Below are positions 1 through 16,180 of a stretch of DNA of 64,000 bases, piece after piece. Under the pieces are notes generated by a model. It worked only from the letters and a program-made list of their open reading frames with translations. It did no database searches and had not been told where the DNA came from. Position 1 is the stretch's first letter. The number at the start of each line of letters is the position of its first letter. The DNA comes from Ancylostoma caninum (lineage: Eukaryota > Nematoda > Chromadorea > Rhabditida > Ancylostomatidae), in assembly GCA_037903475.1 (NCBI GenBank), contig JBAJFG010000347.1, forward strand, positions 2,108,001 through 2,172,000, read 5' to 3'. The position numbers and the translations under genes were made by a program.

Positions 1-135
1 TTGTGAGGAAGAGAGTGAGTGCAATTGTTTATCGCAGAGAGAGAGTCACCAACCGAAGGTGATGACCAAGTTAGACTGTACACAATAGTGGTCGGAGACC
101 ACGCCCACAATGCAGGATCATCGAGGTCGATGATA
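1..135 (-). repeat. 3' LTR (partial) of the BEL/Pao-like element
   Basis: It is identical over 135 bases to 1152-1286. In element orientation this is the start of the 3' LTR, and the remainder lies left of the window. The first bases on the minus strand form a small palindrome (ATCATCGA, CC, TCGATGAT). Confidence 0.65.
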
Positions 136-228
136 CTGGGGCCACACAAGCAAAATACATCATGTTACAAAGCAATAAATTGTATCGTTGTATCGATGGC
201 TGTCGTTGTTGCCCATTTGCGAAGTTGA

Positions 229-278
229 TTGAACTGGAGGCGTGGCTTGTTGGTTGAACTGGAGGCGTGGCTTGGTGG
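229..278. repeat. Two tandem 25-bp units inside the retroelement
   Basis: Units at 229-253 and 254-278 share the 21-base core beginning TTGAACTGGAGGCG and differ by one base near the end. They lie between the gag stop and the 3' LTR. Confidence 0.85.
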
Positions 279-430
279 TGTGGAGTTGGTGTACCGGCTC
301 GTGGTCGTAGATGGCGTGAAGTTGATCTCGGCGGCAATGGGGTGCAGTGGGAGAGACGACGTGGCAGTGGGGGGAAGGGGATTCTGACGTAGTGCAGGAG
401 AATATGGAGCAGCAGCCGTAGACGGGTGGC

Positions 431-889
431 TCAGAACTTCCGCTTGTGCGGAGGCTGTGGCCTTCTGTGATGGCAGAGCAGTGAGTTGTGATCAAGACCA
501 CAATTACTGCACCTGACCTCACAGTTATCCAGATGCTCCGGCTTCAGGCACCGCAGGCAAAGCTGCAGTTTGGCTGCCTGGGCAGTCCGGGATACAGGAT
601 CCGGAAATCGAGCACACCTCGCGGTGTGATGGGCATCGCGGTTGTCGTAGACGTCGCAGAATGCGCAGTTGGATTTTGGAGCAGTACGCTGCTCTCTGGT
701 CTCCAACGCGGCATCTGCGGCGTCGTGCCGATTCTCCATGCGGGTGTCCATACCCTCGATACGAGCATCAATGGCGTTGAGGCGGGTGCCAATTGCGTCC
801 AAACGTGGCAGCAAGTGGTGGAGCAACCTGGCAATGTCGCAACGATCGAGATCCTCGAGTGCGGAACGGATGTCGGCGGAGGATGACAT
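431..889 (-). CDS. Gag-like protein with three zinc knuckles, BEL/Pao type
   Basis: This is a 152-residue ORF with an ATG at 889. Residues about 15-65 form an amphipathic helix or coiled coil rich in R, L, I and D (a repeating RLxAIxxRI pattern). Residues about 75-140 carry three cysteine/histidine clusters: CAFC followed by H and C about 10-14 residues on, then CLRC-x4-H-x3-C, then CSNC-x3-H-x4-C ending near SLLC. This closely spaced zinc-knuckle pattern is typical of BEL/Pao gag, just before the aspartic protease in full elements. Here the frame stops after a basic tail and no protease follows. A TATATAA box on the minus strand at 927-921 lies about 35 bases upstream of the ATG, so an internal promoter is possible. 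The family call rests on motif layout only. Confidence 0.65.
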   Translation of the reverse strand: MSSSADIRSALEDLDRCDIARLLHHLLPRLDAIGTRLNAIDARIEGMDTRMENRHDAADAALETREQRTAPKSNCAFCDVYDNRDAHHTARCARFPDPVSRTAQAAKLQLCLRCLKPEHLDNCEVRCSNCGLDHNSLLCHHRRPQPPHKRKF

Positions 890-1001
890 ATCGGTATGGT
901 GACTGGAGCTGCTCCTGTGCTTATATATACAATGGCTCTAGATCTCTGCTTTCAAGAAGCCGAATTTCGCGCGTGGTGTCCGCGGGCGTCGCCTCATTAG
1001 T

Positions 1002-1077
1002 GCATTGCGGTGGCTCAGTGGTAGAATGCTCGCCTGCCACGCGGGCGGCCCGGGTTCGTTTCCCGGCCGATGCACCA
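1002..1077 (+). tRNA. tRNA-Gly(GCC)-like sequence with encoded CCA; probably a reverse-transcribed primer copy, not a working gene
   Basis: The 73 bases at 1002-1074 read as tRNA-Gly with anticodon GCC: D-arm TGGCTCAGTGG, anticodon loop CTGCCAC, T-arm CCGGG-TTCGTTT-CCCGG, 3' acceptor strand CCGATGC and discriminator A. CCA follows directly at 1075-1077. Eukaryotic tRNA genes do not encode CCA, so this looks like a copy of a mature tRNA. Three things argue against function. The 5' acceptor region carries about two extra bases (GCATTGCGG where GCATCGG is expected). Position 58, an almost invariant A in the T-loop and part of the internal B-box promoter, is T (1059). The sequence lies exactly where the minus-strand retroelement needs its primer-binding site. 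A tRNA scanner would probably still call it as tRNA-Gly. Confidence 0.75.
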
Positions 1078-1078
1078 G

Positions 1079-1286
1079 ACTATTGAGTGGGCGCTAGAGA
1101 CTTTGGGTTTTTTACCCTTTGAACAGACCTTTAGGTGGTTCAGTGGTTTTATTGTGAGGAAGAGAGTGAGTGCAATTGTTTATCGCAGAGAGAGAGTCAC
1201 CAACCGAAGGTGATGACCAAGTTAGACTGTACACAATAGTGGTCGGAGACCACGCCCACAATGCAGGATCATCGAGGTCGATGATA
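1079..1286 (-). repeat. 5' LTR of the BEL/Pao-like element
   Basis: Bases 1152-1286 match the left repeat exactly. The inner part to about 1079 is inferred from the adjacent primer-binding site. An AATAAA polyadenylation signal is present on the minus strand at 1153-1148. The outer edge is set by loss of identity after 1286. Confidence 0.6.
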
Positions 1287-1717
1287 GGGCTGGAGTAAAT
1301 GGTTGAACGACAGTGATCTTCAGCCACGATTTTGATGATCCTCCAGACGTACCTCTCTGAAATCTGCTTGGGTCTAATATCAGTAGACGGTTAGCAGCTG
1401 GCTACGCCCCGGACATTGGTGCTAAGCCCCCTGAATCTGCATGACGGTACTAAGTCCTGGTGGTCAATGACCACCTAGTGCTGCGCCCTGCTCCCCCCAT
1501 CCCACCCACTTCCTGCGTCTGCCACTGCGATTCACATGAATGTAACTGTACTTACGGAAGTAAGCAGCAATTACATTTCCTCACTCTGTTTCTCATGTTA
1601 GTACTGACTCATCGACCCCCTGTGGAAGGGATTATCTGCAAGCAAGTAGAACTACGCACATCCCACTCCAACCCATGTTCCCACCTTGTCTTAAAGAAAT
1701 CAACTTCCTTCCTATCC

Positions 1718-15573: not shown

Positions 15574-16180
15574 CAGTGGCGGACGTAGGGGGGCGGGAGT
15601 TGGGAGGGGGCGTCGGAAAAAAAATTAGGGTGTCCACCGCTCTAGGGACCCAGATGGAAAAGAAAATAAAAATATTAGTTATAGTAATACAAAATCCTTA
15701 AAATTTTGCTGTATGATGCATTGCGAAGGAAAAGGGGCGGGGTCTCTGTTGTGCGATTGGCACATTCAAGAATCTATCCATGCCTTTTACTGTGAACTCG
15801 TTTCCTTTTTATGTTTAAACTTGATTGATGCAGATTTTAAAAAATTCCTGATTCATACGTAATTACAAAAAAAGTATGAAAAATTCAAATTTGCGGCCAG
15901 TTAAATTTATGGTGTAACTGCGCGTAAACTGAAGAAATTTGCAGCAAAAGGTAGAAAAAGGTGTTCGAATGCACAATGGCATCACAGCGGCACCATGCCA
16001 CGTATTTCATGCAAGGATGATTGATGTCACCATAAGGGGGCAGGTAGCGAAGAAATAGTGAAATTTGCGTTTTCTTTCTCTGTTGTGCCAATCGCACAAC
16101 AGAGACCCCGCCCCTTTTCCTTTGCAAGGCATCATACAGCAAATTTTTCAGGATTTTGTATTATTATAACTAATATTTCC
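15574..16180. mobile_element. hAT-like MITE remnant containing a 100-bp-arm inverted repeat
   Basis: CAGTGGCGGACGTAGGGG at 15574 matches the end of the hAT-like MITE at 39228. Downstream, arms at about 15665-15766 and 16080-16180 are inverted copies: AAGGGGCGGGGTCTCTGTTG on the left and its complement on the right, about 95 bp with few mismatches. They flank about 315 bp of spacer. The second hAT-like terminus is not visible, so the element is truncated or rearranged. Confidence 0.6.

Follow-up and report, generated by a model that had tools for sequence, protein, structure and literature searches.

A nearly complete copy of tRNA-Gly at the primer-binding site of a small LTR retroelement in Ancylostoma caninum

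A standard explanation for the length of the primer-binding site (PBS) of LTR retroelements is an 18-base limit set by m1A58 of the primer tRNA. A locus of Ancylostoma caninum, where a nearly whole tRNA-Gly with its CCA stands at the PBS, raises the question of how a primer comes to be copied past that limit and kept in the genome. The window, i.e. the whole 64-kb stretch that was analysed, corresponds to C621:2108001-2172000 in the 348-Mb genome searched. Our reading, to which we give a probability of roughly 0.85 as a whole, is that it holds a non-autonomous LTR retroelement, of recent insertion and with gag as its sole gene, in which the primer itself rewrote the PBS, through run-through of the tRNA and integration of the resulting tail.

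The element is 1,357 bp long and lies on the minus strand. Its 5' LTR (1081..1286, 206 bp), which reads TATCATCG...CTCAATA and starts with the palindrome ATCATCGA-CC-TCGATGAT, is identical at 206 of 206 positions to a second copy at C621:2107930-2108135. This 3' LTR occupies 1..135 (minus strand) and has its final 71 bp to the left of the window, so that the element extends beyond the 137-1286 initially assigned to it. A 5-bp target-site duplication (TSD), AGCCC on the element strand, lies at 1287..1291 with its second copy just past the 3' LTR, outside the window. On the minus strand follow a GTC spacer (1078..1080), the PBS, a leader between tRNA copy and gag (890..1001) with TATATATAAG shortly ahead of the ORF, a Gag-like zinc-knuckle ORF of 152 aa (431..889) and a 3' untranslated stretch (136..430) ending in GGCCCCAG. 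Purine runs of five or more bases are absent from 136-260, and four relatives have just a short CCGGAG or CGGGAG ahead of the 3' LTR. Near-identical direct LTRs, a 5-bp TSD and a PBS directly after the 5' LTR mark an LTR retrotransposon; the usual, not universal, TG...CA ends are replaced by TAT...ATA, and elsewhere LTRs start with TAT (L048, L049) or TG (L039, L044). An autonomous element would encode reverse transcriptase and integrase, and the 152-aa ORF is the one ORF of at least 150 aa in an element too short for a polymerase gene.

Concerning the Gag-like ORF, nine protein relatives were found, including ones from Ancylostoma ceylanicum (up to 70% identity) and Necator americanus (up to 55%). 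Together with the window protein (431-889) these (P0001-P0009) form a small strongylid Gag-like family, several members of which have a basic tail, e.g. KRPRN; the tail of P0001 is only weakly like the 3' stretch of the window element. No Pfam family scored above the cut-off for ten members of this family, and weak matches below it (HIPIP and others) were disregarded. The zinc knuckles may resemble those of BEL/Pao, the element itself being without a polymerase. No relatives were found in collections of viral contigs and genome contigs; a viral contig (L001) did contain the 18 bases exactly, but it drew no tRNA call and did not resemble an LTR, and the match was taken as chance. Protein searches with frames through the tRNA gave tRNA translations among the matches inspected, or nothing, and were set aside.

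ARAGORN detects one tRNA in the whole 64 kb, a tRNA-Gly(gcc) at 1002-1077 on the plus strand, and Rfam matches RF00005 at 1007-1074 with 36.5 bits. Compared with the tRNA-Gly-GCC sequence printed in PMC6587125, followed by CCA, 72 of 74 bases are identical, and the copy departs from it by two substitutions, T11>C and A58>T, and by two additional bases that follow base 4. The initial annotation, which had described a tRNA-Gly with CCA lying antisense between 5' LTR and gag, is therefore borne out on these points, the Gag-like ORF being on the minus strand and the tRNA on the plus strand. As for its claim of a whole 73-base tRNA, bases 5-76 are, judged by sequence, certainly there, while the first four (GCAT) may be leader sequence instead, since the insertion is also readable as a copy that ends at base 5. 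The PBS lies three bases past the 5' LTR and is exact: its 18 bases (1060..1077, minus strand) are the complement of tRNA bases 59-76 with CCA, and the 12 nearest the LTR (TGGTGCATCGGC, 1066..1077, minus strand) make up the site found in C164, a relative with a 98% identical LTR. Base 58 (1059..1059, plus strand) is T in the window copy, whereas all 23 tRNA-Gly genes checked in the genome have A there. Because both LTRs are identical, the differences from the tRNA were probably already there at insertion. No flanking duplication of three or more bases surrounds the tRNA in the window, a feature that had been named beforehand as the sign of an independent insertion.

A functional tRNA gene would have an intact cloverleaf, A58 and no encoded CCA; the copy has A58>T, T11>C, a 2-base insertion and CCA, and that ARAGORN labels it a tRNA gene is a caution for tRNA annotation. 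A tRNA-derived SINE would combine a tRNA head and a LINE-like tail with no LTRs; here LTRs, a TSD and the PBS register are present. As for the extra promoter that a Pol III-like unit was initially suggested to give the element, A58>T would, going by the consensus boxes, harm the B box and T11>C would better the A box. The tRNA copy itself folds with z -0.92 relative to shuffles, and the PBS region folds no better than shuffles (z 0.22). An inverted repeat around the tRNA (CTCATTAGT/ACTATTGAG) was set aside, since 126 of 63,864 places equalled it in an anchored, post hoc test and 9% in an unanchored one. The tRNA-Gly(GCC) genes of the genome include an array at C34:452791-461813 with a spacing of about 242 bp and at least 38 members. 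In the part examined, 21 members are full, exact matches to the tRNA of PMC6587125, and a pattern search picked out 23, all of them with A58 and with ATC in the place of CCA.

To what extent the arrangement recurs was read from a genome census with the pattern TTCCCGGCCGATGCACCA, i.e. tRNA bases 59-76, base 58 being outside the pattern. It has 40 exact sites in 348 Mb, the window included, and the reversed pattern has none, which rules out chance for the PBS match. At 21 of the 40 sites the match stops at 18 bases, at 16 it reaches tRNA bases 1-9, and three are intermediate (L071 and L085 extend 3-6 bases with T58, L088 extends to A37). The 21 comprise 13 that stop at exactly 18 bases, six with one or two further matches at chance level, and two with gapped alignments, which carry L066 on to base 52 and, at the cost of six mismatches, L082 on to base 36; both were counted as 18-base on reading. 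The 16 long copies end at tRNA base 1 in six cases (including the window with its insertion), at bases 2, 3 and 4 once each, at bases 5 and 6 three times each and at base 9 once; two of them (L060, L063) have one gap each, L060 also with six substitutions.

Of the 16 long copies, seven have T at base 58 (6 of 15 with C54/C620 counted once) and nine the original A, compared with 21 other substitutions in about 825 cells outside the PBS. The excess of T58 has P of about 1e-6 if the copies are independent, although inheritance of a copy does occur, as in C54/C620. In this pair (L052 and L050, respectively), 97.6% identical over about 1.2 kb, a dispersed repeat carries one scarred tRNA copy with the same three substitutions; PBS palindromes lie close by, as do tandem units of about 59 bp. 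The base that follows the 18 bases at the 21 short sites is, in the tRNA sense, T in eight, A in eight, G in three and C in two, and six of the eight sites with T look like copies of one repeat. A first genome search had used the window's own T58 sequence (best 40 of 94 candidates), and its T58 share of 6 in 10 independent loci is biased upward, a bias of which the pattern census is free. The 40 do not include long copies that are altered within the 18 bases, namely C11 (L034/L045), which has T58 and is without the final CA, and, by match extent, the three C135 loci and C83.

It should be noted that the 21 short sites are sites and not families: L056, L073, L074, L078 and L079 share their upstream sequence, as do L055 with L081 and L066 with L080, and L084 and L087 resemble the first group by eye. 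Since, among the short sites tested (the 21 less L084 and L087), L066 alone has a further LTR copy in the next 1.5 kb or so downstream, most short sites are unproven as LTR elements.

The long copies were checked as insertions at 11 loci, ten from the census plus C11. Paired LTRs, 98.4-100% identical, are present at five of the 11 (window, C107, C195, C31 and C587), and four of these five have 5-bp TSDs by eye (AGCCC, GTTTC, CTTCC and AACAA; none at C195). C587, a tiny element, consists of LTR, tRNA and LTR and gave no Gag match. C597 (L046, near 672-745) has an LTR, TTTT and the tRNA running into an LTR-like start with no internal region, and looks like an integrated LTR-tRNA-LTR circle junction.

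Within the family of the window element the tRNA is not a fixed feature. A genome search with LTR plus tRNA gave 81 matches, and among the best 40 of 113 candidates scored, at least eight places join a full or nearly full LTR to a PBS; a same-family copy was counted where the match starts within the first 23 LTR bases and passes the spacer. Six of these eight match just 9-12 bases of the PBS: C164 (98% identity), C355 (96%), C75 (93%), C130 (90%), C202 (90%) and C149 (78%). C164, the one short-PBS copy read across this junction, has ...TAATAGTC TGGTGCATCGGC TAAAATC..., a PBS of 12 bases; its second LTR lies about 9.2 kb further on, and it may represent an autonomous partner. The remaining two bear the tRNA, namely the window and the rearranged C535 (G000:C535:620880-621420; L083, L089, L090), in which a reversed 59-bp gag piece precedes a shortened LTR and a full tRNA, and ATGC, an overlap of 4 bases, links the end of the latter with 26 bases from an inverted LTR start; the copy looks like a product of self-integration or fold-back. 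Since six of the eight copies stop at 9-12 bases, the tRNA is, on this sequence comparison, a derived and scattered state in the family. The initial annotation had proposed that the long product was fixed, and had named relatives without the tRNA as a refutation; such relatives exist, so that fixation fails and run-through stands.

The wider group around the family is mixed, because looser matches to part of U5 bring in more tRNA-bearing loci (three at C135, C195, C107, C83, C31 and others), with a U5 likeness to the window of 83-88% for C195, C83 and the three at C135. The last three, at C135:212135, 214582 and 217029, are U5 plus long tRNA matches spaced by 2,447 bp. In a piecewise DNA comparison ten relatives match the window element in the tRNA only, and a more sensitive genome search gives some of them a short U5 likeness to it. 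The leaders of the long copies show no significant likeness to the normal leader (16-99% of shuffles are as good), and for the window leader against that of C164 the figure is 2.5%.

A second stretch related to the primer lies in the LTR: CCACTGAACCACC (1134..1146, minus strand), which is complementary over 13 bases to the D arm of tRNA-Gly (bases 7-19) and starts 69 bases ahead of the PBS. With at most one mismatch it occurs within 300 bases before the PBS at 7 of 34 sites (window, L046, L058, L062, L070, L077 and L082), starting 37-97 bases before it, and none of 300 shuffled motifs does so. From its complementarity it may be a second primer-binding site, or else a footprint of earlier tail jumps. 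In L049 (C31:563000-571000, element-sense 597-800) an R-U5-PBS block is duplicated around the tRNA copy, which joins the second R-U5-PBS at the shared 13-mer; the second PBS has 12 bases.

These data can be accommodated in the following scheme. tRNA-Gly(GCC) would serve the family as primer, bound to a PBS that is short (12 bases in the closest relative read). In plus-strand strong-stop synthesis, reverse transcriptase would copy the tRNA while it is still joined to the minus strand, and would usually halt one base before m1A58, assuming that the tRNA-Gly of this worm is so modified, which would yield the 18-base PBS. Occasional bypass of m1A58, often with A put opposite it, would leave T58 in the tRNA sense, and copying would then continue until the 5' end of the tRNA, or its vicinity, is reached. 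The 3' end of the tail so made, up to 58 bases beyond the 18, would find a short match, be extended and be built into the DNA. Priming by the tail at short homologies, through which integration probably takes place, is suggested by two joins, that of ATGC in C535 and that of 13 bases in L049. In the window the run-through could have happened at the insertion itself or some cycles before. Rewriting as far as base 59 may also be common, given that L082, with 18 PBS bases against the 12 of L049, continues straight into its relative's leader.

The two main end points of the census, 18 bases and near the tRNA 5' end, are those of the two strong-stop products of HIV-1, whose plus-strand strong-stop DNA, according to PMC13191261, stops at m1A58, unmodified tRNA being copied to its 5' end. 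The T58 excess fits the mostly A-to-T change on misreading of m1A described in PMC11019740. According to the latter, however, a strong A-to-T signal needed chemically reduced m1A or an evolved enzyme, and on untreated m1A wild-type HIV RT gave no misincorporation and several other enzymes minimal A-to-T. PMC13191261 describes run-through products of full length as inactive in strand transfer, so that an additional joining step would be required. Run-through of the primer, as initially suggested, is well supported by the position, register and CCA of the copy, the lack of a flanking duplication, the T58 excess and the recurrence at 16 of 40 sites. On a wider reading, which we put forward tentatively and at somewhat under even odds, retroelement genomes in this worm lineage are repeatedly rewritten by their primer tRNA, with incomplete m1A58 or a bypassing reverse transcriptase, with the D-arm complement as second tRNA-binding site and landing place of tails, and with tails built in or moving U5-PBS blocks; if so, integrated elements would be a fossil record of a tRNA modification.

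Three other explanations have to be weighed. A tRNA gene, a free tRNA cDNA or a SINE inserted independently at or beside the PBS would agree with the near completeness of the tRNA and with the run of six T after it, at 1108 on the plus strand. Such an insert would, however, have to supply a CCA that is absent from the 23 genomic genes checked, fall as a single copy in exact PBS register with no second PBS beside it and without a flanking duplication of three or more bases in the window, and repeat this in-register arrangement at 16 of 40 sites, all of which makes it very unlikely. Recombination or gene conversion with tRNA-Gly genes has a plausible donor in the large C34 array of at least 38 members, but the 23 members checked have A58 and ATC and are unable to supply either CCA or T58; conversion should also bring in flanks of the tRNA genes, and the long copies were found without them, which leaves this explanation with practically no weight.

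A single ancestral capture of the tRNA, selected as Pol III promoter or built-in primer source and passed to the long copies by descent, is improbable. Descent does occur, three substitutions being common to C54 and C620 over some 1.2 kb of 97.6% identity; some tRNA-bearing loci (C195, three at C135, C83) have a U5 83-88% like that of the window, and T11>C brings the A box of the window copy nearer the consensus. Against it stand the six of eight same-family copies with 9-12 PBS bases (best 40 of 113 candidates), the scatter of tRNA 5' end points over bases 1, 2, 3, 4, 5, 6 and 9, and the ten relatives matched in the tRNA only by piecewise comparison, in which the tRNA is far better preserved than the LTRs. 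Rewriting of the PBS by its own primer is thus the reading we retain.

Several known systems share parts of this picture. Circular DNA of murine leukaemia virus reportedly contained tRNA sequence between the LTRs (Colicelli and Goff, 1986), like the tRNA kept at the apparent LTR junction of L046; that was an unintegrated circle, whereas the worm copies are natural, recurrent and integrated. TR-GAG elements of plants are alike in layout, being short LTR elements that encode only a Gag-like protein; the window element differs in its nematode host and zinc-knuckle-only ORF. In the bipartite tRNA contacts of Ty1 and Ty3 and the primer activation signal of HIV a second element stretch is complementary to another arm of the primer tRNA, as in the window by sequence; the worm D-arm complement, in contrast, precedes the PBS and lies inside the LTR wherever the latter was mapped. 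Run-through past A58 is known from HIV-1 with unmodified tRNA-Lys3, and lentiviruses and spumaviruses have primer over-extension sequences, complementary to the tRNA just past the 18-base PBS; according to PMC13191261 the over-extension goes to positions 54-55 only and the viral full-length product is inactive, whereas integrated worm elements hold near-complete copies. Helenus TRIMs are small non-autonomous LTR elements with a tRNA-like sequence as well, but theirs, with A and B boxes, lies in the LTR and, according to PMC10886601, is not complementary to the PBS, whereas the window tRNA is antisense, outside the LTR (which holds just the 13-base D-arm complement) and itself the PBS with CCA. 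No published whole tRNA at the PBS of an LTR element was recognised in a literature search that reached few subscription journals; the full-length run-through product is already known, but recurrent integrated copies did not turn up in print there.

With 16 of 40 sites long and T58 in 7 of these 16, the 18-base rule becomes testable in nature, and the data suggest that PBS sequences can record both a tRNA modification and its bypass by reverse transcriptase. Elsewhere in the window, at 15670-16178, two 95-bp inverted repeats, 95% complementary and 319 bp apart, delimit a possible DNA transposon or foldback element.
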